A DNA stretch of 64,000 nt from Fragilariopsis cylindrus CCMP1102 (lineage: Eukaryota; Bacillariophyta; Bacillariophyceae; Bacillariales; Bacillariaceae). Under the pieces are notes generated by a model that worked only from the letters and a program-made list of their open reading frames with translations, had not been told where the DNA came from and did no database searches. This document shows positions 26,225-50,975 of this stretch, one piece after another. Position numbers and translations under genes: made by a program. The stretch spans positions 62,001-126,000 of the forward strand of contig FMBT01000299.1 in assembly GCA_900095095.1 (NCBI GenBank), written 5' to 3'. Each line of letters opens with the position of its first letter. The first letter of the stretch is position 1.

Positions 26225-27625
26225 ATGAGTTTCGAACACAGCCAAATTTCGTTTTCACCACCGATTACGACATTCGAAGACAGCCAACTTTTGCTAACAT
26301 CCAATGCAGTATCCAAATTAATGGAACCAACCAGTGATTCTGTTATCAATATTCGACTAACTTGCCAGGTATTGAACATCAAACAACTCAGCATGGAAAC
26401 CGGTCCTGATCGTTATAAACTAATCCTGAGCGATGGATCTCATTTCGTCGATGCAGTGCTAGCGTATAAAGCAAACTGGATTGCGACCAAACTTGACTCA
26501 AATGACATTGTGGAAATTGTACAATACAATTCTGTTACTACCAACACAGATAATCTTATTTTCATCCAAGATTTGGTAATCAAACAAGCTGACCTCGCGA
26601 TGGTAGGCAACCCTTCTCCATTTGTACCTACCGAAGAAATCAAATTAGATGCATACGATGATTTGAGCGATGACCAAACCTCACCCACCCCTACTGCTAC
26701 CTACATTCATCAAGAGCACACAATCATTGACGACTGGATCATTCTGACAAACGGGTCAGTCCACGGAATTGTAAGAGAAGACACCATTCCGGATGGTCAA
26801 GGTTCTTCGACTATAACCACGTCTACTGTCGCATCTTTTTGTTGTCCTAGCTCTTTGACAATCAATGATGAATCAGATTTTGATGCCATCAACGTTCTAA
26901 ATTGTTTAGTCACCATCACTGGATCCTGTTATCAACTGGGTTTCAAAAATGTCAGCTGTTATTGGGAAGAACATTTTAAGCATCATCAGAACAATCTAGC
27001 AGAATTGTCTAATTCACCAGAAAAGTTCCGGACCAAAATCGTTGCTGTTCATGATTATGCGTCACACGTATTCATGGGTACATTCGTTGATGAGGAATGG
27101 CACAACGGCAAACATGAAATGATGGTGGAATTGGATATTGATGTAGAATGCGGTTCTGGAGTTGTTCGAGGTGATTGCGTGGTAGGATTGGATAGTCTCG
27201 CATACACTCAGTCGCGCAGTTTGTATCGTTTTCTCTATCCAGAGACTGTTTCAGATAGAGAAGGACCCCATGTAACAGGAGATCGAGTGGCTTTGATTAT
27301 GTTTGGACAGCTCACGGAAAAGGGAATCACAGAAGATAGGGATGAATACTATCGCATCTCATTCGACGATTATTTCTCGTATCCAATTGAGGCGCAATTC
27401 CCCACAGAGGAAGTATCTTGTATGGTAGACTTATTTTCTAAGTTGCAACATGTTACTGGAGTTAGAAGGTCTGGATCAATCGGGCACTTGGCTGAAAGTT
27501 TCCCTCCAATTGCAATTGGGCATATGGCAAAGCCTGCACTGCTAAAACGGCCATTGATTCAGAACTTGACCACCACCGTTGACCAATCTCAGCAGGAGTG
27601 TATTCCTAAAAAGAAAAAGGTATGA
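26225..27625 (+). CDS. RPA1 N-terminal-domain (RPA70N/DBD-F) protein lacking the DNA-binding OB folds of RPA1
   Basis: Residues ~21-131 match the RPA1 N-terminal OB fold: LTSNAVSKLMEP, CQVLNIKQLS, RYKLILSDGSHFVDAVLA, a strand with NDIVEIVQYN, and DLVIKQADLAMVGNP. In RPA70 this domain recruits checkpoint and repair proteins rather than gripping DNA. The remaining 335 residues do not show DBD-A/B/C or the Cys4 zinc ribbon of RPA1; they look folded but are unfamiliar. The end, IPKKKKV, is a classical nuclear localisation signal. The stop lies within AAG|GTATGA, a possible splice donor with a good acceptor at 27778-27779, so an additional 3' exon cannot be excluded. Total 466 residues. Confidence 0.72.
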   Translation: MSFEHSQISFSPPITTFEDSQLLLTSNAVSKLMEPTSDSVINIRLTCQVLNIKQLSMETGPDRYKLILSDGSHFVDAVLAYKANWIATKLDSNDIVEIVQYNSVTTNTDNLIFIQDLVIKQADLAMVGNPSPFVPTEEIKLDAYDDLSDDQTSPTPTATYIHQEHTIIDDWIILTNGSVHGIVREDTIPDGQGSSTITTSTVASFCCPSSLTINDESDFDAINVLNCLVTITGSCYQLGFKNVSCYWEEHFKHHQNNLAELSNSPEKFRTKIVAVHDYASHVFMGTFVDEEWHNGKHEMMVELDIDVECGSGVVRGDCVVGLDSLAYTQSRSLYRFLYPETVSDREGPHVTGDRVALIMFGQLTEKGITEDRDEYYRISFDDYFSYPIEAQFPTEEVSCMVDLFSKLQHVTGVRRSGSIGHLAESFPPIAIGHMAKPALLKRPLIQNLTTTVDQSQQECIPKKKKV

Positions 27626-27820: not shown

Positions 27821-29369
27821 CTATATTGTGATTTCCGTATTTACAATGGTTTTTTCTGTGTAATTTTGGTATACTCTCGGTATCGACGTTATAAGCGCTT
27901 TGCTACCATCCACATTTGGTATGTCTACTAACATTGCCTTTTCGTCTGGCAGTATACAAAGCGGATGTGATCTGTGCTGATTCTTATACGCAACCGGCAA
28001 TAACTTATCCCGGCGCCTCTTCGAGCAGTTTTTTGGCACGTCTATTGCCGCAACATAGGTCCCATCATTATTTGAAAAAACGATGATATCATTGTTTCTT
28101 CTAGGGCTGAATAATATCTTTCGACCAAACGTTTCAGGATATTTGTCGAATACGGCCACCTCTACGAGGTGGATCTTAGCACTAGTATCCTCATTTCTCC
28201 TCATTACAACAATTTTGTCGGGGTCTCTATATTGGAGGGCGAACGTTGTTCCACTGTTCGAAACATATATTGACGAAACTCTAGGCTTTTTGCAGTCGAA
28301 TCTACTCTGGTTCCGTTCAGCATATCGTGAACAGGTTACTCCTCTAATATTACTTACTCCATCATTTTTTAGGGGGGGGTGGGGGATTTTATATTTGTAC
28401 TTCCAGAAGATCAACTCAAGTGTTCCTAAGGTCTCACTACTCACATTCCTGGATCCTGTAAAAACAATTTCGTCTGTCGTTTCGGAAAAAACCATCGATC
28501 CATGAAAGCGAAGCGTGCCAAATGTATATGTATTTATAACTTGGCCTCCATCACCGATTTTTCTTATAGATATCTCTTCGCCCCTATCATTGGTCAGCTC
28601 CGCCTGTCACTATATACTTTGAAGAAAAGCAAATTGTGTTTCCCAATCCCATTGGGCAGCGCCCTCTCATAAACTCCTTGCGGCGATGTTCGAGTATTCT
28701 AACAAATTGTCCGTCAATAATGTAAATGCTCATCCTATCTCGCATTGCAAATTTACAACGTTGTTTAAAATTTGCACCACCACCCAAATCGAATTGTGTA
28801 TTGTGGCTTCCTTGTGGGTGTGGATCAAATACGACTACATCGGTAAAATCGTGCACCCTGACCGGTCCATAATCAGTCCACGCTGGGTCCAGTACTTTCG
28901 ATGCCACGTATAACTTTTTGCTGGAAATCATCAGTCTTCTCCAGTCCTTGTTCCTTAAGAACGAAGCGATATGAGCAACACATTCAACCATCGCTGCGTG
29001 TACTGGTTCCGGCAATGCCCCACCCCTCACTCGGATGTCATCATTCTCTTGCTGCTGCTTGCTTTTCAGCCTTTCTAATTCTACTTCATGCTTTCTTTTC
29101 AGCTTTTCTATTTCTCCTTCATGTATGTTCTCTTTTATAGACAATTCTAATTCTAATTGAATTTTTTTTTTCTCTTCCAAATCTGGACCCATTAATTCAC
29201 TGTCATTATCTAATATGATAACTTGTTGTGGTTGTGGACCTATAAAAAAAACACTGTCACCATCCCTATCGGCTAGGGTCAGGAACCCATCATCATCCTC
29301 ATCGTGGTCCCTTTTGCTACGATCATCACCCTCATCGTGGTACCTTTTGTTACGATGAGGATTATTCAT
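27821..29369 (-). CDS. F-box-like + beta-propeller-like protein, reading frame broken once
   Basis: The upstream frame (29369-28587, 260 residues) has an acidic N-terminus, a predicted coiled coil (ELSIKENIHEGEIEKLKRKH), and an F-box-like stretch (VECVAHIASFLRNKDWRRLM..SKKLYVASK). Strands with YIVTGGADQ and TICFSS suggest a WD/Kelch-type propeller. Just before 28587 the frame changes: the neighbouring frame continues the same kind of protein (DRGEEISIRKIGDGGQV) through to 27821, giving about 225 more residues from the Met at 28495. A one-base shift near 28600 or an assembly error explains this best. F-box proteins are substrate adaptors of SCF ubiquitin ligases; that role is inferred. A CCCCCACCCCCCC tract at 28371-28385 is another slip-prone site. 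Confidence 0.5.
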
Positions 29370-30372
29370 GATGGCAATTGTGTGTATGGCGATTGTGTGT
29401 ACGTGTGTTCGTGTGTGTGTGTGTGTGTTTGTTTGTTTGGTTGTTTACACAAAAAAGTGGATTTTTTTGATATGACAATACTGTACCGCCGTACTTCAAC
29501 TACAGTAGTAAGTAGTAAAGCAGCAGTACACAAGCAGAAGGTTGAGTCGGGTATAACTATACTGTATTTGTAGTTTATATACTCAAACAATCCAAGACCA
29601 CCAAGTATGAGATACCGATATGGATCGGGTCGAGCGATGTGAACTAAACTAGAGGTCGTGGGTTCGATACCACCCTAGTTCGGGTCCCGCTCAACCAACC
29701 ACAATTCGGGACTTACAAAACACGGAACCACCTTCTGGACTTGATGCGTCTTCCGACGCACATGACCTGTTGGCGGGACCGACCAAAGTTAATAAACCAT
29801 CGATGAGGACGTGAGAAACAACACGAACTAACTTGACGGGCTTAACATGATATAATATTCGGGAATGATGCTTGACTCCTCGTTACTGCCATTGGAACCT
29901 TTTGTTTTTTTCGGTGACCAAAGTTTTGTACGTTTTTTATTTCAGAGCTGTTTTTTATATTCTACCCTAATTAATTAATTATCACTCCTTCCTTGCTTCA
30001 CGATTTTAGTCCCACTTACTATCACCCTCCTTTTATCTTGTTAAAAACGTGTTGATTCCTTACTTCAACAAACTCATTTACGTTTCGAACTGATACTCTT
30101 TCCGTTTTTCTTTTTTGTGTCCCCAGTAATGTCGCGGTATGTATTCAATCTACCTGTTTCTTTTACAAACCACTCCGAATATCCCTTGACTTTTGCAGTG
30201 AGTATCTGAATGTTCAAGTATTGAATTGATAGGCTATTGTTATATAGCGTGATAATACAAAAATTCTTCTTTCTTTTATTCTTGACAGTAGCTCATAAAA
30301 CGTTGTTTCGAACATATTGAAACCTTAAATCCTTTACTCTTATTATAATCCTATTCCTTTATTACTTTTGCC
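29370..30372. other. Intergenic region of 1 kb
   Basis: It starts with a GT-rich simple repeat (29393-29445) directly upstream of the F-box-like gene, then holds the SINE-like block at 29620-29860. The rest (29861-30372) is AT-rich with no supported gene. Confidence 0.5.
29620..29860 (+). mobile_element. Possible tRNA-derived SINE
   Basis: An A-box-like string (GGGTCGAGCGATGTG, 29627-29641), similar to the Leu/Ser tRNA type, is followed 20 bp later by a consensus B box (GGTTCGATACC, 29661-29671). This is the internal promoter layout of RNA polymerase III genes. The segment cannot fold as a normal tRNA: acceptor and anticodon arms do not pair. It continues into unrelated sequence with a perfect TGCGTC-TTCC-GACGCA hairpin (29745-29760). 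This matches a SINE head and body, but a single copy, an undefined 3' end and no visible target duplication leave it open. Confidence 0.4.
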
Positions 30373-30780
30373 ATGTCTCCTTTTAGATCTCCCAAGTCTC
30401 CCAGTACTCCTGCTGCTGTCCATCGCATCGAAAGTAAGGTGAAGATTGCAATGGATAAAACTTCTTTATCTGCGGCTAAAGCCTCTCGGGTACTCCATGA
30501 TGAACAAGCTGACTATCATTTTGTCCAAAAAAATTCATCCACGGCTAAAGCCTTTCGGGTATTCCATGACGCTCAAGCTGTCTATCATCTTGCTCAGGCT
30601 CAAGCTTCTGCTGATGAAGAAGCGGCTCTTGACACTAAAATCCGTGCACTTGAAAGTGCTGCTGTTCTTGTAGCTGATATGACTGCGCTTGAGGAGGAAG
30701 CCAATCGTAATATTTTAGGTTTAAATATTAGTAGTAATGGAGAGAAGGAAAAGAAACCGTGGTATAGATTTGGATTTTAG
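30373..30780 (+). CDS. Small helical protein with an internal duplication, unknown function
   Basis: A 135-residue frame begins with a Ser/Pro/Lys-rich, histone-tail-like stretch (MSPFRSPKSPSTPA). Two related blocks follow: AKASRVLHDEQADYHFVQKN and AKAFRVFHDAQAVYHLAQ, about 24 residues apart. The remainder is Ala/Glu-rich and predicted helical, ending KKPWYRFGF. There is no recognised family. It lies 91 bp upstream of the left direct repeat of the two-gene unit. The DNA of the duplicated blocks also matches closely, which suggests a recent internal duplication. Confidence 0.45.
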   Translation: MSPFRSPKSPSTPAAVHRIESKVKIAMDKTSLSAAKASRVLHDEQADYHFVQKNSSTAKAFRVFHDAQAVYHLAQAQASADEEAALDTKIRALESAAVLVADMTALEEEANRNILGLNISSNGEKEKKPWYRFGF

Positions 30781-30871
30781 AGGAAATTTAAAATCTTACA
30801 ATGTATTCAGTTGTTAATGTTAGTAAAAGTATCTACTTATAATAATAAATTAACCTTTTAAATCATATATT

Positions 30872-31230
30872 TGTATATTTAAAAGAATTGCTTGTATTAT
30901 CTATCGTACACAGTTGGTTGATTCATTCATCAGTGAAGACTGGACGTTCGATTAGTTATATTAGTTAGTTACTATTTTGGTTCTGCAAACAGTTGTTTGT
31001 TAGCTACCCTCTTTATCATTTTTAAAATATTTGTTTTGCTTGTCGAAGTAGTGATTTGGTTGAAATGTTTTAACATTTCTTCAATTTCTGTTTCGGTACC
31101 ATACGATTGCCCCTCCTTTTTGTAGCCATCGTTGCATGTTTTTGTACATTAAACATGAACTCCACCATCTGCTCTCTCAAATCAGCTCTATCAAACCATA
31201 CCTCCCTAATTATTTCAATCATTACTGACA
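30872..31230. repeat. Left long direct repeat of the two-gene unit (359 bp)
   Basis: This segment recurs at 35939-36305 in the same orientation. The copies differ only by a 7-bp tandem duplication and one extra T in the right copy, as far as I can compare by eye. The repeat begins TG and ends CA. Its first 60 bases correspond to the 3' end of the dioxygenase coding sequence, and its right part to the 3' end of the zinc-motif gene, which is intact at this copy. Confidence 0.9.
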
Positions 31231-32805
31231 TACTCGTTTCCTGTACATCTGGGTCGTACATTTCGTTATATTCTTGTGGACTACCACTCCAAAATAGGAT
31301 ACAGCGAACGCAGTTATTTAAAATTCCCGAACCACTGTGAATTATACTTCCATTTATTCTGGTGTATGTAAGTGTTGGTGCATTACTAAGGTGTGCAGAT
31401 TCGTAGTGGAAGTATTTTTGCCACTCAATCGCTTTCAATGACGCATCAGGAGGTATCATTGTCTGAAATAGCTGGCCGTATCCTTGGTGACTTATCATTA
31501 TACCAACACGTGTTTCAGGATCAATTTTATTAATAAGGTTAATCAACTCTTCTGCTTTCCCTACGGTATTCCATTTCTTACACACTCCCCCGGCTTTTAA
31601 CAATTCACATAACTTATCTATCGAATTGACTTTCTCACGAGAAGTCACGCGATATGCAATAGTGCTGTCCACATTATTGGATAAAATTAGGGCAAACTGG
31701 GCTAGCGGCGTTGCTAGATCCAGATGTTTCTCTTGCTTTCCGGAGTTTTTTGTTAGGATTAGCGAGAACGAACCATACTTCATCGTCTTTCCCTCTCTTT
31801 TATTGTCCATGTCTGATGTTTGTTTTGCGTATTGAATAATTTCCTTCATCCATTTCGCTGTCAGCTTGTATGTTCTTTCTATTTCCCGCCAGCATTCGTT
31901 TCCTCTCAATTTCCATCCGCATTCTGTGTGTAGATCTTGTACGTACTCTGAAGTTACCCCAATTTCGATTCTATCACTCTGTATTTTTCTAGCACCCCAT
32001 TTCGTATTAGCACTACCGTTTTCTACCAGATTACAGATTTCCTGCCAGTTCTCGTTTAATGTTCGGTCGATTGTACGACAGTAATTTAAAATTTTATATT
32101 TTTTTTTGTCATTGTAGGATCCATCCCTCTTTCTTATTCCTTGTAGCACCTTTTGTCTGGAACGCTATAGCAAAAGCTAAATTTATTTCCATTATTCTCA
32201 ACAAAGCCACTTTCGAAGTGGTTGTATTTTCTTATTGGACACGTCTTTTCCTCCGGTTCTTGTCCTCCCCTTATATCACCTCTGATCAATGTTGTACTGG
32301 TTTTATTTACATCCTCACTGTTAGAAATTTTTGTTTCATAATGCTTTTTGATTGAACTGCATCTATCAAAGTGCTCGCAGAGAGCACGGATTCTATTGAA
32401 TGCCTTTCCGCAGAAACATGAATATGCGTACCAATCCTTATCAGTCTTGATAACTAGATAACGTTTTCCTTTGTGCCACCCGAATCTCGGTTTTGAATTC
32501 ATGGAAGCAATCATGGGCGGTGTCAAACCCAGATGGATGTATTCGTAGAGTTTATTTGTTTTCAGCTCGTTGGAAGTACGTTCCGATTCATTGTCCTGAC
32601 AATCATCTACATGGGGGCATATTTTTGTAGAGTTGTTGCTGATAAGACCACAGCGGTAACACACATAGTACATGCCTGGTGTGCAATACGGAGCTGGCTT
32701 ACCCTCACAATCAGTGTATAAACCAAAACTCGTGCTGTCACCTGCAAATAGTTGAGCGATCTTGTCTTTGTCTGTAATGGGATCAACGTTGTAACAAGCA
32801 GCCAT
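31070..32805 (-). CDS. Unknown protein with two copies of a novel zinc-type motif; two overlapping frames
   Basis: The start frame (32805-32134, 223 residues) carries the pattern C-x(1,2)-C-x10-C-x-H-x3-C twice: Cys49/52/63, His65, Cys69 and Cys130/132/143, His145, Cys149. This spacing suggests metal binding and I know no family with it. The next frame (32149-31070, about 360 residues) overlaps by 16 bp in a different phase and continues as an even-composition, folded-looking protein containing GVMISHQGYGQLFQ-like and RCILFWSGSPQEYNE stretches. So this is either one gene with a frame break near 32140, or two genes. No splice pair that I tried restores phase. It is divergent from the dioxygenase gene, with which it shares a repeated upstream region. 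Confidence 0.55.
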
Positions 32806-32837
32806 GGTTTATAAAATAATGACAAAGTTATGGCTAT

Positions 32838-32871
32838 TTATGTTGTTTGTTTGTTTGTTTGTTTGTTTGTC
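32838..32871. repeat. (TTTG)n microsatellite
   Basis: About eight TTTG/TTGT units lie just upstream of the zinc-motif gene. Confidence 0.9.
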
Positions 32872-32908
32872 AACACAAATACAACGTAAGGCCAAAATTC
32901 CAATAAGC

Positions 32909-33600
32909 AATTGTCTGCTAGGATTGCATGGACTGTCTTAATTATGCATGGGCCATTTGAAGAGAAAGACGACAGGCCTGTCGTGTTTTGTAGCTTTGTG
33001 TGGCAATTAACACGATCCAAATATCGTTTTTTTGAACGTAATTCTGACGTAGTTAACAGTACGTACTTTTCTGTAATTATTTGGTAGCTAATCGTATATC
33101 GTGTTATTTAAGGTGGGTTGAAAATTATACTTAAATCAAAATTCCGAGTAGGAATTGTCTACTTAACCCAAAATTTAAGTAGCCATGGTAATTGTCTGCT
33201 AGGATTGCATGGGCCATTGAAGAGAAAGACGGCAAGCCTGTCGTGTTTTGTAGCTTTGTGTGGCAATTAAGACGATCAAAATTTCGTTTTTTTGAACGTA
33301 ATTCTGACGTAGTTAACAGTACGTACTTTTCTGTATTATTTGGAAGCTAATCTTATATCGTGTTATTTAAGGTTGGCATTCGTATTATTATCTACTTAAG
33401 CCAAATTTTCCGCTAGAAGAATTGCATGAGCCATTTGAAGAGAAAGACGACAGGCCTGTCGTGTTTTGTAGTTTGTGTGGCAATTAACACGATCCAAATT
33501 TCGTTTTTATTTACGTAATTCTGACGTAGTTAATAGTACGTGCTTTTTTGTAATTTTTTATTAGCTCATCGTATTGTGTTATTTTAGGTGGGTTGATAAT
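32909..33600. repeat. Three diverged tandem copies (about 220-260 bp) in a divergent promoter
   Basis: The block AGAGAAAGACGRCARGCCTGTCGTGTTTTG begins at 32961, 33221 and 33439, giving spacings of 260 and 218 bp. Each copy continues through CACGATC/ACGATC, TCTGACGTAGTTAA and a final GTGTTATTT..GG. Each carries a TGACGT core (33045, 33305, 33522); copies 1 and 2 have the perfect palindrome AGTACGTACT (33058 and 33318), and copy 3 a degenerate form. The array fills the whole space between the two divergent genes, so it probably contains their promoters. Confidence 0.85.
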
Positions 33601-33670
33601 AGTAACTTACTTAGTACAGAAAGAATCAGATATCTTCTTGTTAGTAACCGATATCTTCTTGTTAGTAACC

Positions 33671-35995
33671 ATGGTTCTGGATGAATACATACAGGGTGAG
33701 TGCAACATACATCCTTATTCTATTCTCCAGAATGTTTTGGTGGAATGTTCATTTGTTAGTGATGATTTGATTGTACACCCCTTTGCCAACTCTCTGTACT
33801 CGAAAGAAAAAGCTTACATACAAAAGGTATGCGATACACTTTTTTTCTTGTCGGTATTACATGACGAACGATTGGACGAGAAAGAAGACCGATCTTTGCC
33901 ACACCCTCTTCATTTGATTTTTCGGAAAGGAAGGATTGCCAACCAACTAGAGTATAGAGAGTGGACAAGATTTTCGGTCAAGACGATTTTCTTAGATCTA
34001 AAAAAACATATTAACGATAGTAAAGTACACGGTCTTCAGCAGGTTGAGATAACATGGACCTCATGCCGTCGTCATCTGACTTTTTTTTTTGAAGTCTTCT
34101 ACTGGTATGTATCAAATGTGGTGGATCAAAAAAAATATTTCACTGTTGGTAATGATTGTAGCACAGGGAAAAGAGTTGTATATCTGCGAGATCGGAACAA
34201 AAAACAATTTACTGATCTCACCCAATGGTACGGCAAAATGTCTCACTATATGTATACACTCCTGCGACGAACCACATCATCTTCGATACGCAACTGGGAA
34301 AAAAAACACACCAACTTCGATGCTTTTATTGCAGCATCAGAGAGTATAAACAACGATGCCTCGAAAAATACGAACTCGTGTGACAATTCGGACACCAATT
34401 CAGGTGACGATTCGGACAACGATTTCGGTGGATCTGCGTCGGAAAAATTAGAAAACGATTTGAATACCAATTCATCGAATGAAAAAGCCACCGAAAAATC
34501 TAACAAAGATTCGGATGACGATTCAAATGAAAAGTCGGATGACGATTCGGATGACGATTCCGATTCGGATGACGATTCCAGAAAATCCAAAAGCAATGGA
34601 ATAGCCACTGAAAAATCGGATGAAGAATCAGATAGCGAATTGGATGACGATTCGGATGATGGTTTAGAAAGATCAAAAAGCGATGGAATAACCACTGTCA
34701 AACCGAACGTACATTCGGATGACGATTCCAGAAAATCAAAAAGCGATGGAATAGCCACTGAAAAATTGGATGAAGAATCAGATACCGGTTTGGATGACGA
34801 TTCGGATGATGCTTTAGAAAGATCAACAAGCGATGGAATCAAAGATTCAGAGGACGATTTTGATGAAATATCCGATTCGGATATCGATGAAGTATCTAAA
34901 ATAGAGCAAAAAAGTGTCAACGGCGATGACGATTCAGGCATAATCTCTGATAATCACTACTGGAAAAATAGCGATAAAGATACAGATACTGAATCGGGCA
35001 ATCGTGATCAGGATCCGATAAGGAAGCGTCACGAGTTAATGAATTATGCAAGAGCACGATACAACGACAATATGTGTTCAAAAATAGAAGAGGTAATAAC
35101 CAAAATAGATGATTGTAAGTCAACCATTCACGATATAAACGACGAGAAAAGATACGTTGATATGTGCACTGGATTCCATACTTATTTGAAAGGTAAAATC
35201 GTTGGTAAAATGAAGTGGGGTTCCACCAAAGAAAAACAAGAACAAGTCCAGTCTTCCGATGTTGGTATAGTACAGAAACAACTTTCATACCGAAGTAGTA
35301 AAGTTCCAATTGGTCACGTGTTAGCAATGAACGGAAGCTTCATTGGACAGGAATTGATACAGGATATATACAATTTTGTTAACAATCACGGAATGATTTC
35401 TCGGGGTGACTTCTTCAGCAGCTCAGATCCCAAACATGGATATGTATCCTATGCGTCGACTGTTCACCCAACAGTATTTTCATATTCCGATGGGACGAAA
35501 AAGATTCCTGCTGTTCCTCTACCCCCGGCGATCGCCGTATTATTAGCATCGGTACAAGAACAAATACTAGACACGCAATTTGAATATATGAATTCGAGGT
35601 CGACCGATCGATCGAGACCTATCCATCGAACTTTCTTTAATGGTGTGCAAATACAGGTAGGTGGTGGCTTTGGTCCTCATTCAGACCGAAGCCCAGACAC
35701 TTGCTATCCCGATTCTAACAACAATCCTTCAGGAGACCCAAGATTTCCCCATGTAAACGAGATGCAGGTCGTTACTGTCGGTTTTGTCTTTGATAAGGAT
35801 GGTAAGATAGTTCAACGGAAGGATGCTGGGCGATGCGAGATTGTCTGGATGGACAAAAACAACGAAAAAGAAGAGCTTAACCAAATTCTTACAGAGCAGA
35901 TTTTTCTACATCTTCAGATGCACAATATTCAGGAACGATGTATATTTAAAAGAATTGCTTGTATTATCTATCGTACACAGTTGGCAGTTGGTTGA
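33671..35995 (+). CDS. 2-oxoglutarate/Fe(II) dioxygenase-like protein with long acidic repeat region, 774 aa
   Basis: The start at 33671 (ACCATGG) is chosen over the open frame beginning at 33593, which lacks ATG; a 21-bp direct repeat sits immediately upstream. Residues ~1-220 are an unfamiliar folded region. Residues ~235-425 are Ser/Asp-rich with internal repeats (GIATEKSDEESDSELDDDSD type). The C-terminal ~180 residues fit the double-stranded beta-helix dioxygenases: FNGVQIQVGGGFGPHSD gives the metal ligands His670 and Asp672, His751 (QMHNIQ) is a fitting third ligand, and Arg761/Arg768 (KRIACIIYRT) fit the 2-oxoglutarate-binding strand. AlkB-like demethylation or hydroxylation is inferred from motif spacing only. 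The last 18 codons lie inside the right direct repeat. Confidence 0.65.
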   Translation: MVLDEYIQGECNIHPYSILQNVLVECSFVSDDLIVHPFANSLYSKEKAYIQKVCDTLFFLSVLHDERLDEKEDRSLPHPLHLIFRKGRIANQLEYREWTRFSVKTIFLDLKKHINDSKVHGLQQVEITWTSCRRHLTFFFEVFYWYVSNVVDQKKYFTVGNDCSTGKRVVYLRDRNKKQFTDLTQWYGKMSHYMYTLLRRTTSSSIRNWEKKHTNFDAFIAASESINNDASKNTNSCDNSDTNSGDDSDNDFGGSASEKLENDLNTNSSNEKATEKSNKDSDDDSNEKSDDDSDDDSDSDDDSRKSKSNGIATEKSDEESDSELDDDSDDGLERSKSDGITTVKPNVHSDDDSRKSKSDGIATEKLDEESDTGLDDDSDDALERSTSDGIKDSEDDFDEISDSDIDEVSKIEQKSVNGDDDSGIISDNHYWKNSDKDTDTESGNRDQDPIRKRHELMNYARARYNDNMCSKIEEVITKIDDCKSTIHDINDEKRYVDMCTGFHTYLKGKIVGKMKWGSTKEKQEQVQSSDVGIVQKQLSYRSSKVPIGHVLAMNGSFIGQELIQDIYNFVNNHGMISRGDFFSSSDPKHGYVSYASTVHPTVFSYSDGTKKIPAVPLPPAIAVLLASVQEQILDTQFEYMNSRSTDRSRPIHRTFFNGVQIQVGGGFGPHSDRSPDTCYPDSNNNPSGDPRFPHVNEMQVVTVGFVFDKDGKIVQRKDAGRCEIVWMDKNNEKEELNQILTEQIFLHLQMHNIQERCIFKRIACIIYRTQLAVG

Positions 35996-36305
35996 TTCAT
36001 TCATCAGTGAAGACTGGACGTTCGATTAGTTATATTAGTTAGTTACTATTTTGGTTCTGCAAACAGTTGTTTGTTAGCTACCCTCTTTATCATTTTTAAA
36101 ATATTTGTTTTGCTTGTCGAAGTAGTGATTTGGTTGAAATGTTTTAACATTTCTTCAATTTCTGTTTCGGTACCATACGATTGCCCCTCCTTTTTGTAGC
36201 CATCGTTGCATGTTTTTTGTACATTAAACATGAACTCCACCATCTGCTCTCTCAAATCAGCTCTATCAAACCATACCTCCCTAATTATTTCAATCATTAC
36301 TGACA
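35939..36305. repeat. Right long direct repeat of the two-gene unit (367 bp)
   Basis: Direct copy of 30872-31230, also TG to CA. It contains the end of the dioxygenase gene and then an isolated copy of the last ~85 codons of the zinc-motif gene on the minus strand. The flanking 5-bp sequences (ATATT left of the left copy, AGATC right of this one) do not match, so there is no simple target-site duplication. Confidence 0.9.
36046..36305 (-). pseudogene. 3'-terminal fragment of the zinc-motif gene
   Basis: It codes for the C-terminal stretch SVMIEIIREVWFDRADLREQ..EFMFNVQK seen in the complete gene at 31070, then stops matching at 36305. The frame on the minus strand runs on into the antisense of the neighbouring acidic gene, which has no meaning as a protein. 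It is a by-product of the repeat. Confidence 0.8.
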
Positions 36306-37437
36306 AGATCGAAACGTCGTTGCTCCTCGAGTCATCGCCGATGGCGAAGAAATTATCGTAGATGGCGAAGAAATTGTCGTAGACGAACAGCAGGGTGATG
36401 TTCTCGTAAACGAAGAAGTTATCGTTGATGCTCGAGTCATCGCCGATGGCGAAGAAATTATCGTAGACGAACAGCAGGGTGATGTTATCGTAGACGAAGA
36501 AGTTATCGTAGACGAACAGGAAGATGACGACGAAGAAGAAGAAGAAGAGTACATCACCGACTTTGACACTACAACAAACGATGTCCGTTTTTCTGAAATT
36601 CAAGTGTATCGCAACACTGTATTCACAACTATTCTTGATAATATCAAGAACGAACATTATTTGAATAAGAAGGAGAATTCTTTAATCGCTGTAACTGATC
36701 GTCAACTAGTCATATTTACTAATCAAGTATACGAAATAACAAAAGGGGCTGGGATGCGATTCCTTATTGCAGTGGCCGAAATTTTGGGTGTAACTAATTT
36801 TGTTACAATGGCGGAAGAAGATATCATGCCAAGAATTGAAGTTGCTTTAAGAGAGGTCTTCTTTTCCGACGATAACGACGTTCCAGTCCAAAACGTCGAA
36901 GCTGCAGTCGTTCAAGATCGAAACGTCGTTGGTGGTGGTGATGGTGATGGTGATGGAGATGCGGTACAAGGTGGTATTGAACCACATAACCTCTTATTGT
37001 TAAATCAACAACCAGTCGTTGATGTTCCAGTCCAAAACGTCGAAGCTGTAGACGAACAGCACGGTGATGTTATCGTAGACAGAGAAGAAGAAGAAGAAGA
37101 AGAAGAAGAAGAAGAAGAAGAGTTCAACGCCGATGATGACGTAGAACTTATCGTAGTGGGTCATACAACACCGGTGGCAATACGAACAGCTTCAGTAGTT
37201 ACACCAGATAATAATGGAGACAATGAGGTCGACGGCGTCAACAACGACGACGAGGTGAACGAAATAGCTATCGTCAACGTTGAAGATCTTGTATCTGAGC
37301 AGGACGTACTTGGATTTAAAAGTGTGTGCGAAGCAATCAAGCAGACTGTTGGCAGTAACGTCATTGTAGAAGCAGCTGATTTTGGAAAGTTTCATAAGGA
37401 CAATGGTTCAGATGATTTATCATTCACTCCTCTCTAG
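36306..37437 (+). pseudogene. 5'-truncated acidic repeat protein
   Basis: The plus-strand frame is open from the edge of the right direct repeat to the stop at 37435-37437, but has no in-frame ATG until 36753, so its natural start seems lost. It reads as Val/Asp/Glu-rich repeats (VIADGEEIIVD, DEQQGDVIVDEEV), then a more regular block (VFTTILDNIKNEHYL .. MRFLIAVAEILGV), then a second repeat zone with a poly-Glu run and DEQHGDVIVD. The phrase QDRNVV occurs both at the very edge and again near 36918-36935, in DNA as well as protein. Family unknown. A short form from 36753 could still be made. Confidence 0.5.
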
Positions 37438-37746
37438 AGTGTGTCCAGGAATCTAATTAACTGACAGTTGCCGGAGATAGCTCCGTATTTGCAGCTGATT
37501 TTGGAAAGTTATATATATAAGGTTTATCATTCCGTCTCTAGTTTATACTTGATTACGCATCATGGTCGAATCCTCGGATGACCAACGGGATTCATTGTCA
37601 TCTTCTACTTTTTGAAATATCACAACAATTATACTAAATATATATATATTACTATTAACATTACTATTAAAATTATTTCCTGAATGAGTTGATTATCTAC
37701 ATTAATGCCTTCTTGTGTTTTTATTGACGTGCATCCATCAGAACGA
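37438..37746. other. Intergenic space between convergent genes
   Basis: These 309 bp are AT-rich and hold a partial repeat of GCAGCTGATTTTGGAAAGTT (37376 and 37491), copied from the end of the upstream frame. No gene is seen. Confidence 0.5.
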
Positions 37747-38247
37747 TCATTCAAATTCAGCATCTTCAGAGTCGCTGTCGCTCTCTGCATCACCGTCACC
37801 ATCAGACATCATAGGGGTATTGAGATCGTGAATTCTGTTGAGGAAATCCATCCTGTCGTGTAGTGCAGCTTCCCTCTTCTTCTCCCACACATACTTGGTC
37901 TTTTTCCTTTTACGGCGCTTTGCCTTTTTGGTAGCTTGATTCCAGAAGGTGCTCCAGGTATTTTTCCTTTCGATCGTTGCCATGTCGTGATTCTGATGTT
38001 CCTTGGCTTCCGCAATGACTTCTTTTTGGTGGTCAATAATCAACTTGAATGTACCAGGATCCATGAGCGACCCACTCTTGATTCTTTTAACATGCTTCTG
38101 CTTCTTCCAGCTACCGACCTTTATTGATTTTGGTACACGGCGAATGTATGATTGGACACGAACAGTATCGGAGGCTGCCAATGTCATGCCTTTAATTTGA
38201 GCTGACACTTCTTGCTCTTGCGTTTGCGTGATAGTTGGTGGTTCCAT
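37747..38247 (-). CDS. Small basic protein with acidic tail, unknown function
   Basis: A 166-residue single-exon frame from ATG 38247. Residues ~35-130 are Lys/Arg-rich, including TKKAKRRKRKKTKYVWEKKR, which could act as a nuclear or nucleolar localisation signal and nucleic-acid contact. The last 20 residues are a run of Asp, Glu and Ser (DGDGDAESDSDSEDAEFE), a typical CK2-type acidic tail. I do not recognise the family. It lies just upstream of the 3' end of the triple-C48 gene on the same strand, separated by about 510 bp, so the two are transcribed separately. Confidence 0.55.
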   Translation of the reverse strand: MEPPTITQTQEQEVSAQIKGMTLAASDTVRVQSYIRRVPKSIKVGSWKKQKHVKRIKSGSLMDPGTFKLIIDHQKEVIAEAKEHQNHDMATIERKNTWSTFWNQATKKAKRRKRKKTKYVWEKKREAALHDRMDFLNRIHDLNTPMMSDGDGDAESDSDSEDAEFE

Positions 38248-38757
38248 TGTTTAAGATATAGTTTCTATTTTTATGACCAGTTTATAACGGTCTTTTTGAA
38301 AGCGAAATATGGAAATAAAAAAATTACACGCAAAAGTGCGGTCAAAACGAACTGAAGAAATCTTTCCTAATAATGGATTATGGTCGCGGTTAATTCAAAT
38401 TGCTACTGGACATGATCGCGCGCACAAAATCATTTAATACGTGAGGGTTTTAGCAATAAGATTGTTAGAAGAAAACATCACGCAATACTGTAGAGTCAGT
38501 TTAAACAAAAATACAAAAGCATAACGGAATATGGTCGCGTATTGAATAGTGATTCGTGCATAAAGGTTCAGATTTAGTCCTTTTCTTATCATTGTCTTGA
38601 ACATACACCAGTATTCGCTACAGTTGACCTCAAGAGAGCGTAGGAACTAATACGATCCTATCCACATACTCGTTTAAAAAAATAAATAGAGGAATATAAT
38701 CGTATAATATATCTATCTATTTTACAACGAAGTGCTTTCTATATTAATGACTACCCA
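38248..38757. other. Intergenic region between co-oriented genes
   Basis: These 510 bp carry no supported gene or repeat. They include the upstream region of the small basic protein gene and the 3' end of the C48 gene. Confidence 0.45.
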
Positions 38758-41700
38758 CTATTTTCTGGAAAGCGCTGCTACCAGCTCAATAAACTTTTTG
38801 TACTGTGACCGCATCTTGTGAACGTACCTCTGGTCAAATTTGAAATGATCCGAGTCAGTAATCTGCATCTTGAATCCCTCTTCATCTAGACATGGCGGGT
38901 TTCCCTTCAGAATAGGAAAGTCAATAAGATTATCTAGCGATCTGAATGTAGCAACAGCGTATTTCAAGCTGAAGATGCCACAGTCATAACCATTCTTTTG
39001 TCTCGCTCTAATCGGATTGAGCACATGCATAGTTTTGGCAGAAAACGCTCCTATTCTTCCATGAATGCGGTTCCATTCTGCATTCAGCCATGAATAAATC
39101 CTACTCTCGACATTACGCACGTCACCACCCAACGAATCAAAGTATAGCAAAATAGGCATTAAGGAACAACTGCTGTCCTCACGCGATATGCTCCCAAGAT
39201 TAAGCAAGATTACATGTGACCAGTGTAAATCTTTAACAATAGGAATAAAGAGCGCCCGCTTCTTGAAAATATCTATTGTTTTTGTAAATGTAGACGATTT
39301 TGAATTCCAACTTTCTCCCATCAACGAGGTATATAGATATGACGAAAATACATGAGCATCAGCACGATTGCTATCTGATATAGCCATCATCAAAAAAAAA
39401 TCAACCAAAGTATCGTTTAGCCATTGTCCAGCCAATAAACCACAAAAGTCGTTCACCTTCACAACGATCGGTCGGTCACTACTCGCCGTCTTATCTGGCA
39501 CCCAGTTAGCAAATTCTTCCAGGCCAGACTGGTCACATGCCACTTTTATCTGATTAATCTTTTCACTATCAAAAGGATGAGATATGAGTACATCAGAACT
39601 ATTTTTGTTACCTGTAAACTTTGACCTTTTTTTCGGATCAATTTTTGTTCGTCTTTCATACAAACCCTCCAAATGATCCAACAACGGGGCAGCGATGCAT
39701 TTGAATGACACAATTTTATTAATACGAATGAATTCAATTCCAAAATCTTGTTGAAGATCGAAGCTATCTCGAGAACACCCAAACTCGATCACCAGGATCG
39801 TAGTATCTGAAACTGAAGGTGGAAAGTCAATTTTTGTTTTGAAATCTAACTGCTCAATATCTGCAACAGGAACTTTGAAGGAACAAAAGCTTTCGATGCG
39901 CGTTTGCTTAGTGCAATCATCAAAGTTGACTTCGCCATAAGCATCACTCATGAAGAATTTGGTATCGGTGACGCTCTCAACGTCAACTTTAAGCACCGGA
40001 TGCCTCCTGGTTTTACCAGGAGCGTGGTCGATCTTTAGATAGCTATATCTTCGGTTATATGTGACTTCAAATTCACCCTCATGAACATGCTTGCCAATCG
40101 AATACCTAAAGATGGTATACTGTCGTAATCTCGATATTTCTTCGGTGCTGTCGATTTTAGAATTGTTGGTGTTATCTTCTGGAGGAGAAGACCTCGAAGC
40201 CTTGCGCATTGGCGAATCAGGTGTTGTAATTTTTCGTTTATTACTTGCTGGAGTTTTGATTTGGGTGGGACCTCCACTACTGTTGCTAATATAAGAGTCC
40301 AGTTCAGCACCATCCAACGGCAACATCTCCTGAAGTTTATCAGTACAATCTTGTTTTAACGCTTTCAAGAATTTAGCTTGACGAATAAGAAAAGTTGCAG
40401 CATTGGCTTCGCCCCCATCACGAAGTGTTAGGTCATCGAGAGTTGCACCGAACCGAAAACTAGGCGAAAAATACATGTCTCTCTTCCTAAGGCTGTATCC
40501 ATCCTCTAGTATCACCTGTTGCTTTTCTGCATCAATACGGACTATTTTTGATGATTTAAATTCCTTTGGTGGCGCATCGTAGTGGAAGTACCGAATCGTA
40601 TCACCACATGATAGTTCGGTCAAAACTGCACCATTCTTCCTATGTTGTTCCATCTCACCATCAGAGATATACATATATGACGTAACAGAGGAGCCGTCGT
40701 CGTCGACAATGTCTGATTCATTACCTCCTTCCGAACCAATGTTCGCATGGTTGTTTTTAGTCATGTTGATATCGTCGTTGTTGGGGCTCTTCATGTCCTT
40801 GTTATTGGCGCTGTTGCTACCGTTATTGGTATCGTCGTTGTTGGTCATGCAGCTCCCGTTGTCGTCCAAATCATCTGCGTCACTTTCGTCACTGGATTTT
40901 TTCTCCGGCAATTCATTCCTCTTCTTTATTCGAACCGAAATATTGTAAATGGCGGAAAAAAGTACTAATAAATCTTTCATTATAAACAAACATGTATCTA
41001 GAGCACTACACTCCGTGATAATATCTGAAAAAGTTTCTTTAGTATTTTTTGCACTCCTTCGACCGCTAAGTTTGCTTTCGCCTTTGAAGTTTTCATGTAC
41101 CACATTCTTGTACACAATAGCAATATACATGATGAGATAATACCCACTTTCAAATGTACTAGTCTGCTTGCGAACAGGTATAGAATAATGGGGTAGGTTA
41201 CCACGATGAAATATGATATCATGGAACGGACTTGACTTGGGGGGCAACCCTTTCTTTGAGGGCAACCCTTTCTTTGAGGGCTTTTGCATCTTTTCGTTCT
41301 TGTCTTTCTGAATTATGGTGTTAAGGAGACCACGCACATTTTGAGCCCATTCTATCGTGCTATGTCTATAATTACTACCACTGTCGAAGTGGTATATGCC
41401 TGGAGAAGATTTAACTCTCTGTGGATCTTCCCACAGAGAAGATAAATTGAATACAAACATAACGGAGTAGTGACCGCCTCGCCATATCGGAAAAGCAATA
41501 CATTCGTACGATAAAAGTGAGGATAATCGAAAATATTTCGGGAAACGTTTCTGAAGCATCGGCCATTCCGTACTCCCCAAATCTAGTACCGATCTTCTAA
41601 CCGGAAAGAATCGCCTTTTTTTACTATCCTCGTCCCGCATTATCCAGTAAGATGCCATATCGATCATCGAGTCGGTGGCCCATGCAGCACGAAGTGCCTC

Positions 41701-42543
41701 GGTAGAACTGCTTCTTTGCCTAGTGACATTTTGACATCGTCCTTCTGATGATGATTGTTCATAAAGACGGATAGCTTTTTGAATTCTTGTAAAGCCCTGA
41801 TAATCAAAATCTACCTCTTTGAAATTGTGTGTACGATCTGCAGAATTGTCACCAGTAGAACCCCGTAATTCTTCCGTCGAGAGTATAGATCCAACAAACT
41901 TCCAGGTGGAGAAAAGTGTTTTATCGGCGTCAGGGGTACCTTCAGCAACAATGGGGAATATAATTGTTGCATTTTTATCTGTAAATTCTTTTCGCAATTG
42001 ATGTAAGTTCAATCCTAGAGTCTCTCGAATGTATTGACGACCGGTGATGACAAGTTCAAATTCAGAAAATACTTTCAATCGTTCATTCATAAAACTCAAA
42101 TCCTTCTTCAAAATACATAATGCTACTGTATGTCTGATATGTTCGCTCATCACGAAATGTTGACTGATTTTCCTAATCATTGAAAGAGTTTGGTCCAAGT
42201 CGCCTGAATAGAATACGGCAAATATATACATAAAAACACAGACAAATACACCACAATCACTAATCGTTTGTACCGGACAAGGAGGCCATTCGACGGTCCA
42301 GTCTTTGTGTGGTTCTTCGTGGCTGATATACTTTTTGAGAAATGCAGGAACGGCTTTGGTATAGAAAATCCGACGCAGTTGATGGTTTTCATCTAGCGAT
42401 GTATCCAACATAATGACGCGGCCTGATTCCGTTAAAACAATACACAGAATCCAATGTTTAGGACGGACACAATATATTGGAATCGAAAATATTCCTGGTG
42501 CAATTCCAACAGCGTTAGGCTTAGGACCATTCTCAAACGTCAT
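38758..42543 (-). CDS. Large protein with three C48 (Ulp1/SENP-like) cysteine peptidase modules
   Basis: The frame is open from 42615 to 38758; 42543 is its first ATG (1,261 residues). Numbering below counts from 42606, 21 residues earlier. The C-terminal module is a full Ulp1 domain: GQWLNDTLVDFF, His1128 (HW), Asp1157 (YFDS), Gln1203 and Cys1209 (QKNGYDCG). The N-terminal module also keeps a full set: His51 (HW), Asp68, Gln113 and Cys118 (QTISDCG). The middle module has His379, Asp408 and Gln481, but ESG at 486-488, so Ser replaces the nucleophile. An acidic Asn/Asp linker and a region that may be a chromatin-type reader lie between. Such enzymes remove SUMO or related modifiers. TTTTTCCACTAG right before the open frame looks like a splice acceptor, so a 5' exon may be missing. 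Confidence 0.78.
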   Translation of the reverse strand: MTFENGPKPNAVGIAPGIFSIPIYCVRPKHWILCIVLTESGRVIMLDTSLDENHQLRRIFYTKAVPAFLKKYISHEEPHKDWTVEWPPCPVQTISDCGVFVCVFMYIFAVFYSGDLDQTLSMIRKISQHFVMSEHIRHTVALCILKKDLSFMNERLKVFSEFELVITGRQYIRETLGLNLHQLRKEFTDKNATIIFPIVAEGTPDADKTLFSTWKFVGSILSTEELRGSTGDNSADRTHNFKEVDFDYQGFTRIQKAIRLYEQSSSEGRCQNVTRQRSSSTEALRAAWATDSMIDMASYWIMRDEDSKKRRFFPVRRSVLDLGSTEWPMLQKRFPKYFRLSSLLSYECIAFPIWRGGHYSVMFVFNLSSLWEDPQRVKSSPGIYHFDSGSNYRHSTIEWAQNVRGLLNTIIQKDKNEKMQKPSKKGLPSKKGLPPKSSPFHDIIFHRGNLPHYSIPVRKQTSTFESGYYLIMYIAIVYKNVVHENFKGESKLSGRRSAKNTKETFSDIITECSALDTCLFIMKDLLVLFSAIYNISVRIKKRNELPEKKSSDESDADDLDDNGSCMTNNDDTNNGSNSANNKDMKSPNNDDINMTKNNHANIGSEGGNESDIVDDDGSSVTSYMYISDGEMEQHRKNGAVLTELSCGDTIRYFHYDAPPKEFKSSKIVRIDAEKQQVILEDGYSLRKRDMYFSPSFRFGATLDDLTLRDGGEANAATFLIRQAKFLKALKQDCTDKLQEMLPLDGAELDSYISNSSGGPTQIKTPASNKRKITTPDSPMRKASRSSPPEDNTNNSKIDSTEEISRLRQYTIFRYSIGKHVHEGEFEVTYNRRYSYLKIDHAPGKTRRHPVLKVDVESVTDTKFFMSDAYGEVNFDDCTKQTRIESFCSFKVPVADIEQLDFKTKIDFPPSVSDTTILVIEFGCSRDSFDLQQDFGIEFIRINKIVSFKCIAAPLLDHLEGLYERRTKIDPKKRSKFTGNKNSSDVLISHPFDSEKINQIKVACDQSGLEEFANWVPDKTASSDRPIVVKVNDFCGLLAGQWLNDTLVDFFLMMAISDSNRADAHVFSSYLYTSLMGESWNSKSSTFTKTIDIFKKRALFIPIVKDLHWSHVILLNLGSISREDSSCSLMPILLYFDSLGGDVRNVESRIYSWLNAEWNRIHGRIGAFSAKTMHVLNPIRARQKNGYDCGIFSLKYAVATFRSLDNLIDFPILKGNPPCLDEEGFKMQITDSDHFKFDQRYVHKMRSQYKKFIELVAALSRK

Positions 42544-42956
42544 TTCCCGCAAACCGTGTAGTAACTGTTCGTGGGAATATTTTTTTTCGGTAATCAAAAA
42601 TCTCAAATCGCCCAGGACCTTCTCCTTCTAGTGGAAAAACACACTCTTTTCGTTTGGAATAATTTAAAACGCGCACCTTTGTTTACACATCTACTAAAAC
42701 AACTAGTACTAAATCTACGTAGAAACTACGTAGAAAACTTTTGTCAACCTTTCAATTTGAGGTATCGACCATGGTAATCATGTCTAATACTATCCAAGCA
42801 GGGTGGAATTTTGACAACATTGATAGCATAGTCGATGAAATATCTGTAGGGACCAACTCAAGTTACAAAAAGATTGAAAATACGAGGAAAAATGATGGAG
42901 AAATGATTTTAGCAAAATCTGCAACATACCAGACGACAGACTATTTGAACTAGATT
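42544..42956. other. Region between the C48 gene and the LINE
   Basis: It contains the probable intron or promoter of the C48 gene and an unexplained plus-strand frame ending at 42951-42953 (from 42774: MVIMSNTIQAGWNFDNIDSI..). That frame may be 5' sequence of the LINE or an interrupted host exon; I cannot decide. TACGTAG occurs twice in tandem at 42715-42732. Confidence 0.35.
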
Positions 42957-42970
42957 TTACACCAACCAGC

Positions 42971-44598
42971 ATGGCAGAAGGAGACAAGGAAAGAGAAACA
43001 GGTACAGACAAAGCACAAGACAATGGAGAAGACGATGACAATAACAACGACACAAACGGACAGAATAACGGCAACAGAGAAGAAAATGGAAAAGAAAAAG
43101 ATAAAAACAAACAAGATGATGAAAACAAACCAAATAACGACGACAGAAACAGAAACAACAGTAGAGGTAACGAAAGCGGAGGAAGAGGAGGAAGAGGAGG
43201 CAGAAGAGGAAAATCGGAAAGGAAACAAACACCAAGAACAGAGTGGGAAACATATGACTTCTCAATAAGTTTCAATCCAAAAACCATGATAAACAAAAAC
43301 CCAGACGCAGAGTTCCAAGCAGTACTATCAGAGATAATGAAAAAGTCTCCAGGAGTTACATTCCACCCAACCAATGAAGACATGTTCCCTAAACCGAAAC
43401 CATTTACAACCATCCAGGAATACCCACAAAATGAAGCTGCGTTCAAAGACTTCTTTGAGGTATATGCAAACAAAGGACTAACGACATATAGAATATTTCT
43501 AAAAGCAACAATGCAATATAATGAATTGGACTTAAGAAACAGCTTATTAAATTATCTGCGAAGCAATAACCTATGGATGTCGAGCGACTTGATATCAGAA
43601 AATGTGGATGAAATGATAGGATACATCAGCTACGGACATGACAAACTAGTGTGGAGACCAGAATGTGAAAAGAAGATCAACAACGGTATACAAGCACTAA
43701 TTCAAAGCGACTCTGTATCAGAGGCACTAAAATTCAAAATAGAAGGATTAAAAAAAGGAATACATGTAAGAGTAGCAGCTGGAACATTCAGAGGAGGGAC
43801 GAAGAACGATCCAGTAATGTGTGAAGGACTAGTCCTGAGGACAACAAAAGCACAGGCGAGAGCAGCTATAGAATTATTAGGACTAATGGATGAAAATATA
43901 CTAGGACCATTCTATGGAATCGTACCCCGAGGGATAGACAAAGAACTAGGACCAAAAATGTATGGAGATCTACTAAGAGCAAACAATGATATGTTAAACA
44001 CACTGCGATCAATAGCAGTAGTAAACTGGCCAGAAGAATTATTTCTAGATAAATATAACTCAGCACCAGATGTAGCAGGCACCATGGCAATGAGAATAGA
44101 TAACTTACTATTGAATGTATGGAATTGTGTAGCAATTGAGAAAACGACCGACACAACAACAAAAGGAAAATATCTATTGATCTTCCAAGAAAAAGATATG
44201 GAGAAAGCAAAGATATCCATAGGAAACCTCATCGAAGCATTTGGAAGGAAGGGTGGCCGACCAACTGCAAAGATAGCACTAGCAAGATACCATGAATTTC
44301 CGGAATTCGATAGCATTCAACGAGTATCGCAATCAGTACACTCAAAGGGACTAAGATTGCGAGCAATGCTAGAAACAGCAGCAGCACAAAGAACAACAGG
44401 AACACCAAAGAAAGCGCCTCAACAGAAATTTCACTTTCATATTGACAAAGAACTGCAAACCAACTTACCAATAACAACACAAAAGTCGTACATCAATGCA
44501 GCTACAAATCAGAAAAAGTTAACGATAGTACAAACTCCACCGGCAAAGCTGCAACCGATCATACGTCAATTGACACACCCAATAACACAAGGAACGAC
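42971..44598 (+). CDS. LINE ORF1, first part (nucleic-acid-binding/gag-like)
   Basis: It starts MAEGDKERETG, has a Glu/Lys/Asn-rich low-complexity lead, then an RGG-type basic patch (GGRGGRGGRRGKSER). A folded region of about 350 residues follows (FSISFNPKTM.., LVWRPECEKKINNGI, VRVAAGTFRGG). RGG boxes bind RNA, fitting an ORF1 protein that coats its own transcript. The frame now runs on into the copia LTR, which supplies a 57-residue tail and stop at 44770. The start Met is the first in frame after the host-like sequence. Confidence 0.75.
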
Positions 44599-44834
44599 TA
44601 TTGAATTACTAACGAACGCCGACAGACCAAGCGCGCGCCCACATTCAAATAGTAGAACAATCACGCCGGACAAGAGAGCTGTTACAACCAGCCAGCCAAA
44701 CCGCTTACTCAACAGGCTTGACAGCCTCAGCAAAGCACTCAAGCAGAGCTTAGTTGGAACAATAGCATAGGCTCATTAATCGTTTAGAACAACCTTTACA
44801 AACACTACTAACTTCGCCTACTTAGCTCTTAACA
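44599..44834 (+). repeat. 5' LTR of copia element 1
   Basis: It matches 50122-50357 over its full 236 bp by eye. It carries an open frame in the sense direction (IELLTNADRP..LVGTIA) that ends both the LINE ORF1 fragment and, at the other end, the pol frame. Confidence 0.93.
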
Positions 44835-44920
44835 GTTCTAAACAATATTGTCGCAGGACAATAAACTAGGTAATACAAGTACATCTCCAGGGATAACGTA
44901 CAGTAACAACAACAAAGACA

Positions 44921-46213: not shown

Positions 46214-46225
46214 TGGTGTGGGGAG

Positions 46226-50293: not shown

Positions 50294-50357
50294 GCTCATT
50301 AATCGTTTAGAACAACCTTTACAAACACTACTAACTTCGCCTACTTAGCTCTTAACA
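50122..50357 (+). repeat. 3' LTR of copia element 1
   Basis: Same length and sequence as the 5' LTR; it is followed directly by the ACGAC target duplication. Confidence 0.93.
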
Positions 50358-50362
50358 ACGAC

Positions 50363-50975
50363 ACCAACATCACAGCTGACAACAACACAACAAGAAGCAA
50401 TGACAGTAGCTACAAACCACTCAGGACTATCGATCGACCAACAGACAATAACAACAATGATGACTCATATGACGCAGATGTCAACTCAGTTCAAAGAAAT
50501 GGAGACAGACAGAATAATCCGAGAAGACAAGAATGAAATGAAAAGACAAGAGCGTGAAGACAGAATTGAGACAAAAAGACAAGAGCGAGAAGCCAAAGCT
50601 GAAGAGAAAAGATATGAAAGAGAGGCAAGAATGGAAGAGAAAAGATTAGAAGCAGAAACAAAACTGTACACAGTTCTGCAAACAATGATGACAATAACAG
50701 TGAACAAGAACAACAATCAAGACAACAACCAAAGCAAAGAATTAATACCAGATGAATTAACGACAGGAAAAACTGATGTAACTAGTGCACTGACAACGAG
50801 TATCATAACAACATCAACACAATCAACCAAACGATCACAAGCTGAGCTATCCAACAACAACGAAGAAACAGAAATGAAAGACGCAGAAAACGGAGAGGAG
50901 CAGGCAGACGAAGAAGAAGCACTGAAGACTAAAAGAAACAAAACAATAGAACAAACGGAACAAGAAGATGAAATA
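50363..50975 (+). CDS. LINE ORF1, middle part (coiled coil)
   Basis: This piece of the LINE lies between the two copia elements. It has an Arg/Glu/Lys heptad-like stretch (about residues 40-80: REDKNEMKRQEREDRIETKR type), a predicted coiled coil as found in LINE ORF1 proteins that trimerise. It ends in an acidic segment (NGEEQADEEEALKTKRNK). Its frame is in register with the piece ending at 44598. Confidence 0.75.

Follow-up and report, generated by a model that had tools for sequence, protein, structure and literature searches.

Two divergent genes ending inside near-identical direct repeats in Fragilariopsis cylindrus: a possible mobile or circular unit

The DNA analyzed here, a 64-kb stretch from Fragilariopsis cylindrus (the window), looks like algal nuclear DNA, with apparent introns and what look like organelle-type genes visible by eye. 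Self-comparison of the window returned 14 repeat rows, three of which stand out: the LTR pairs of two Copia elements and a pair of direct repeats of approximately 360 bp (R) that bound a unit at positions 30872-36305 (Table 1). The unit has the form R-body-R and carries two divergent genes, a zinc-motif gene on the minus strand and a second gene on the plus strand, both of whose 3′ ends converge inside each R. The left R contains the tail of the complete zinc-motif gene together with an end stub of the plus-strand gene, the right R contains the tail of the plus-strand gene together with an end stub of the zinc-motif gene, and both genes cross the R edges unbroken. The body occurs once, R being the only doubled part, and a second copy of the body, even as a diverged protein, was not found in the 64-kb window. 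The gene map bears out the arrangement proposed in an earlier note on this DNA, namely, a divergent pair between repeats that each hold both 3′ ends tail to tail. The layout given there of a complete zinc-motif gene at the left with a plus-gene stub, and the reverse at the right, stands as well, except that the zinc-motif gene is read in two overlapping frames rather than a single one.

Table 1. Positions of the unit, its genes and repeats, and neighboring features in the window
Feature	Position	Strand	Description
R, left copy	30872..31230	.	359 bp, TGT...ACA; 3′ tail of minus-strand zinc-motif gene and plus-gene end stub
R, right copy	35939..36305	.	367 bp, TGT...ACA; 3′ tail of plus-strand gene and zinc-gene end stub; 7-bp tandem insertion, T6
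Zinc-motif gene, first frame	32137..32808	-	224 aa as listed; ATG at 32805; no family match at cut-off
Zinc-motif gene, second frame	31073..32164	-	364 aa; one frame off the first; runs into left R
Region between divergent gene starts	32809..33670	.	Three related copies of ~180-200 bp: 32945-33125, 33190-33384, 33404-33600
Plus-strand gene	33671..35995	+	774 aa; ATG at 33671; last codons in right R
Left-flank small reading frame	30373..30780	+	Complete; ends 91 bp before the unit
Right-flank reading frame	36304..37437	+	Begins at R edge; first ATG is codon 151 (36754)
Copia 1	44599-50357		LTRs 44599-44834/50122-50357, 236 bp, 100%; target duplication ACGAC
Copia 2	50976-60388		LTRs 50976-51788/59576-60388, 813 bp, 100%; target duplication AAATA

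The genes end differently in the two R copies. In the right R, the plus-strand gene stops past the 7-bp insertion and the zinc-gene stub ends 50 bases further, at 36046; in the left R, 114 bases separate the stop of the plus-gene stub, at 30955, from the zinc-gene stop at 31070. The plus-gene product terminates in YRTQLAVG in the right R and in YRTQLVDSFISEDWTFD in the left stub. Compared with the complete zinc gene at the left, where the T run has five residues (T5), the right stub, with six (T6), extends the zinc tail by 33 codons. The longer open tails, that of the plus gene from the left R and that of the zinc gene from the right R, have stops 16 bases apart by hand count. In each R, the complete gene has the shorter form of its tail and the stub has the longer form. 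When the zinc-tail stretch was shuffled, only 70 of 5000 versions stayed open for 50 codons, which points to the longer zinc tail as the probable older form. The tail frame changes may be real or may be sequencing errors in base runs. Because R carries both tails, each gene is closed by a stop codon in the linear R-body-R arrangement, and the same would hold for a circle or array of R plus body.

The reading of the zinc-motif gene in two overlapping frames indicates either a frameshift or an unrecognized intron; the frame change is spanned by 26 GT-AG pairs of fitting length, none of them convincing by eye. The first frame contains cysteine/histidine motifs discernible by eye (CxxC and CxC...HxxxC). 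The PDB sequence searches covered the second zinc frame and the plus-strand gene; for the second zinc frame, 39 of the 41 listed rows were integrases or integrase-containing chains. A role as an integrase was considered from the match to HIV integrase (best E 0.046) and was rejected as chance, since the rows represent one family, came from one of three PDB searches, and align H with the catalytic D of integrase. This residue also counts against the zinc-motif protein as a divergent transposase. The single-sequence structure model of the second zinc frame was too poor for its fold to be judged (mean pLDDT 33.5).

The plus-strand gene product comprises an N-terminal part, an acidic repeat stretch, and a C-terminal part in which an HxD...H...R motif was noted by eye. 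The dioxygenase-like label of the earlier note stays at the level of this motif: no match to a 2OG oxygenase was obtained in Pfam, NCBIfam, or the PDB sequence searches, the latter giving no match of note for this gene. A single-sequence structure model of the C-terminal part (mean pLDDT 32.0) was unusable for fold assignment. In the NCBIfam search, the lowest E value, 0.0067, came from a clumping-factor adhesin model aligned to the acidic repeat stretch.

More generally, neither protein has a Pfam match at the cut-off or a match of note in PHROGs or NCBIfam. For the frames tested between the R copies (the two genes and pieces), Pfam and NCBIfam profile searches returned no match to gag, pol, integrase, or transposase, in agreement with the earlier observation that the unit has no polymerase, gag, or transposase. 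Searches for relatives covered viral, phage, and prokaryote collections, where absence says little about algae: four protein queries of IMG/VR gave 2, 1, 2, and 5 pattern stretches and prokaryote species genomes gave 12 and 4, none of which was confirmed; a 21-base stretch of R gave 0 in IMG/VR; and phage records held no relatives of the plus gene or second zinc frame. Rfam returned no match at the gathering score for positions 29000-38500, and ARAGORN found 0 tRNA genes in the window. Foreign origin by codon usage was considered and set aside, as the five gene pieces of the unit (-0.036 to 0.022) fall inside the range of 12 other window genes (-0.111 to 0.074); a codon score that placed four of the five pieces below the three flanking genes scored was discarded, as it mixed in amino-acid content.

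The region between the divergent gene starts contains a 16-bp palindrome in each of its three copies (at 32969, 33229, and 33447), perfect in two and with 2 mismatches in one. With up to 3 mismatches allowed, the palindrome has 3 matches in the window, compared to 0.07 expected from shuffles. Since the three stretches are copies of one another, the palindromes appear to be one site multiplied and not three independent sites. Outside the unit, the right-flank reading frame looks cut at its 5′ end, and joining the left and right flanks does not restore a start for it. For these two reasons, target DNA seems to be missing, meaning either that there was no clean insertion into the present neighbors or that the site changed later. 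Further out, the gene at 26228-27625, about 3 kb left of the unit, matches the replication factor A N-terminal domain (E 4e-9), and a Ulp1/C48 peptidase domain (E 4e-20) occurs in a large minus-strand frame at 38761-42627, among frames lacking family matches.

The R pair itself is nearly identical. Self-BLAST of the 64-kb window aligned the two copies in direct orientation with 0 mismatches and 2 gaps (E 7e-180), confirming the 359/367-bp direct repeat with TG...CA ends described previously; the gaps correspond to an extra 7-bp tandem copy in the right R and to T5 in the left R versus T6 in the right R. Barring gene conversion, 0 substitutions in 359 sites place the 95% upper bound of divergence at 0.8%. 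Both copies start with TGT and end with ACA, which is the only inverted repeat between the two ends of an R copy. At two random points in the window, TG..CA would occur by chance with a probability of 0.0046 (~1 in 220) and TGT..ACA with a probability of 0.0004 (~1 in 2300). These edges help to discriminate among readings because a mobile unit has specific ends and a broken circle or array has arbitrary ones, and they favor specific edges, with the caution that TG..CA is no strict mark in this window, where the aligned LTR of the Copia element at 44599 begins with TA. Just inside the R copies, 31231-31255 and 35914-35938 have a weak inverted similarity, CAGATG...CAGGAA(A)CGA, but between 12 and 167 of 4000 random pairs do equally well under the various lengths and scorings, and 99 of 5000 under an earlier scoring; it is only suggestive. 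The five bases outside the unit are ATATT at the left and AGATC at the right, so that no target duplication surrounds it, as had been noted before.

Two Copia elements with perfect 5-bp target duplications lie 8 and 15 kb from the unit, separated from each other by a gap of ~620 bp. Both bodies match RVT_2, a reverse transcriptase family. Given two nearby elements with 100% identical LTRs and such duplications, a Copia integrase has probably been active here recently, the domain matched being the reverse transcriptase and not the integrase catalytic domain. The polyprotein of the element at 44599-50357 (46310-50120) also matches a PTM/DIR17-like Tudor domain (E 1.2e-6). One reading frame (42896-44770) enters the LTR of the first element and another (50349-50981) that of the second, as if older genes had been split. 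In a Nitzschia, Copia is reported as the commonest LTR type (PMC13149256).

Five readings of the locus were weighed, and the weights assigned to them are judgements rather than computed values. Preferred, tentatively and with somewhat less than even confidence, is a reading in which 30872-36305 represents a single copy of a mobile unit that is non-autonomous and bounded by long terminal direct repeats. We infer an enzyme, mobility, exchange, and other copies of the unit in the genome. The TGT...ACA ends would be recognized, and the unit inserted, by an enzyme encoded outside it, the simplest candidate being an integrase from an LTR retrotransposon resident in the genome. Exchange between two copies would then yield a unit with its left end from one insertion and its right end from a second, removing the DNA between the copies along with the matching target duplications. 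Counted in favor of a mobile unit are the 0 substitutions in 359 aligned bases, the exact TGT/ACA ends with their low chance frequencies, and the two Copia elements nearby. As in an LTR retrotransposon, R is a long terminal direct repeat with TG..CA ends. The right-flank frame without a start also fits, because loss of the DNA between two copies would leave such a frame. The missing target duplication, real as it is, is less of an oddity than the earlier note had made of it, since in Phaeodactylum tricornutum five elements with LTRs >99% identical and no target duplication were read as products of exchange between copies (PMC2806351). In plants, unequal recombination is likewise described as giving intact elements without duplications (PMC7251063). 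Against exchange, the passages of the diatom report that treat Thalassiosira record no such recombinant (PMC2806351).

Other features count against an LTR element. The target duplication is absent and there is no match to gag or pol; the sequence that follows the left R is coding, with no TGG-type primer site evident by eye, a site likewise not evident in the two Copia elements; and the unit has no clear polypurine tract by eye, the purine stretch there being weak. Transcripts from the divergent gene starts would not span from repeat to repeat. Finally, the genes cross the R edges, which an LTR element does not need: such crossing is natural in a circle or array and requires a special history in an LTR element.

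This last observation speaks for a chromosomal origin, in which a head-to-tail array of the gene pair was cut by rearrangement at both ends, or a longer array was shortened during assembly to little more than one unit, with TGT/ACA being accidental. Collapse of such arrays by assemblers is possible, and both genes running unbroken over the R edges with close, convergent ends is as expected in a repeated unit; broken ends also agree with the absence of a target duplication and with the start missing from the right-flank frame. Set against this origin are the low chance frequencies of TGT..ACA and TG..CA edges and the single body in the window, and an array is judged to be unlikely, if worth serious consideration. 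A tandem duplication with later loss, previously offered as the plain alternative, is not so plain, requiring one duplication and two deletions by the geometry of the map. A simple tandem duplication was rejected, as duplication of a divergent pair doubles the body and not the junction, whereas here R alone is doubled. Tandem duplication of a convergent pair was also rejected, as the complete outer genes would both have to be lost, with edges falling at TGT and ACA.

The earlier note had read the unit as just over one lap of a two-gene circle. The circular redundancy that it recognized holds, and a little over one lap describes the geometry correctly, but this geometry is not specific to a circle, as any element with long terminal direct repeats is alike. 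A circular two-gene episome or virus-like genome of ~5.07 kb, of which just over one lap was inserted through end joining or through exchange with a repeat already in place, is consistent with the absent target duplication and with the ambisense genes, their closely spaced convergent ends, and the one large divergent intergenic region with its three palindrome repeats, a layout resembling that of small circular genomes. The nonamer origin of circular Rep-encoding ssDNA viruses is NANTATTAC, with the core ANTATTAC. This core occurs 17 times in the window, and 0 of the 17 lie inside 30872-36305. No replication protein was recognized in either protein by Pfam, PHROGs, or NCBIfam, no relative was confirmed in IMG/VR, and the TGT..ACA edges would be left unexplained, such that this origin is regarded as improbable.

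A more speculative proposal, put forward as a long shot, is that the locus represents an undescribed eukaryotic mobile unit in which the convergent gene ends are the terminal repeat. Its 5.07 kb would encode both proteins in full as a circle, as linear R-body-R, or as an array; the palindromic divergent region would be a control or replication site, and the zinc-motif protein would be the unit's own mobility or replication factor. In a non-exhaustive search of open-licence papers, no unit was seen with a terminal repeat made up of the convergent ends of the two genes it carries.

Duplication of R at contig joining, an assembly or haplotype artefact, is very unlikely. Differences of the kind left by unpolished long reads count for an artefact: the R copies differ in indels alone, including one within a run of T, and the reading frame of the zinc gene shifts by one base. 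On the other side, the flanks are unique and different, the 7-bp insertion is in one copy only, and the TGT/ACA edges are precise. Least credible of all is a KolobokP-like DNA transposon that has long direct repeats at its termini and whose divergent transposase would be the zinc-motif protein. The cysteine/histidine motifs and the described KolobokP layout speak for this reading (direct repeats of ~450 or 660 bp enclose an internal region, and arrays form in which units have a repeat in common; PMC9587614), but it is opposed by the lack of a transposase family match in Pfam and NCBIfam, by TGT/ACA rather than RR/YY ends, by the absence of a TTAA duplication, and by TGT as the sole inverted repeat. 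The R-body-R geometry itself is not diagnostic, because LTR elements and KolobokP, as described there, have the same layout (PMC9587614).

If other copies share the TGT/ACA edges, the unit would represent a family of mobile units whose terminal repeats overlap coding sequence on both strands and which encode two proteins without a family match in the libraries used. Such a family would provide a testable case of a two-gene unit whose genes are intact in every topological form. If they do not, the unit would be a useful example of a broken or collapsed array that mimics an LTR element.

Among known systems, the circular ssDNA viruses of diatoms (Bacilladnaviridae) are of a size like that of the unit and share its circular logic; in contrast to them, the unit has no recognized replication protein or nonamer core. 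An integrated fragment of a circular ssDNA virus in a diatom genome is described as a piece of a rep gene flanked by a LINE-type target duplication (PMC8613185). For Cryptons, too, a circular intermediate has been proposed, but their terminal direct repeats are only 4-6 bp long and are accompanied by a tyrosine recombinase, of which the unit has no match; some Cryptons encode a C48 peptidase, as in the Ulp1/C48 frame at 38761-42627 (PMC3212892). KolobokP, reported from animal phyla, resembles the unit in that direct repeats a few hundred bases long enclose an internal region, and in the circles and repeat-sharing arrays proposed for it. In contrast, KolobokP has inverted ends of 11-18 bp, RR/YY termini, and a DDD/E transposase (PMC9587614). 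By eye, the unit has no TTAA duplication, no RR/YY ends, and no 11-18 bp inverted repeats within each R, and it has no transposase match in Pfam or NCBIfam. In Retand LTR retrotransposons, some of which are non-autonomous, antisense genes and tandem repeats also occur in an LTR-bounded unit; the antisense frames of Retand lie between pol and the 3′ LTR, whereas in the present unit there is no pol match and the genes enter the repeats (PMC11963269). Compared to the diatom CoDi/Copia copies that lack target duplications, the unit has no gag or pol match and no evident primer site, and its two divergent genes end in the repeats; what it shares with them is near-identical terminal direct repeats and a missing duplication that is explained by exchange between copies (PMC2806351).
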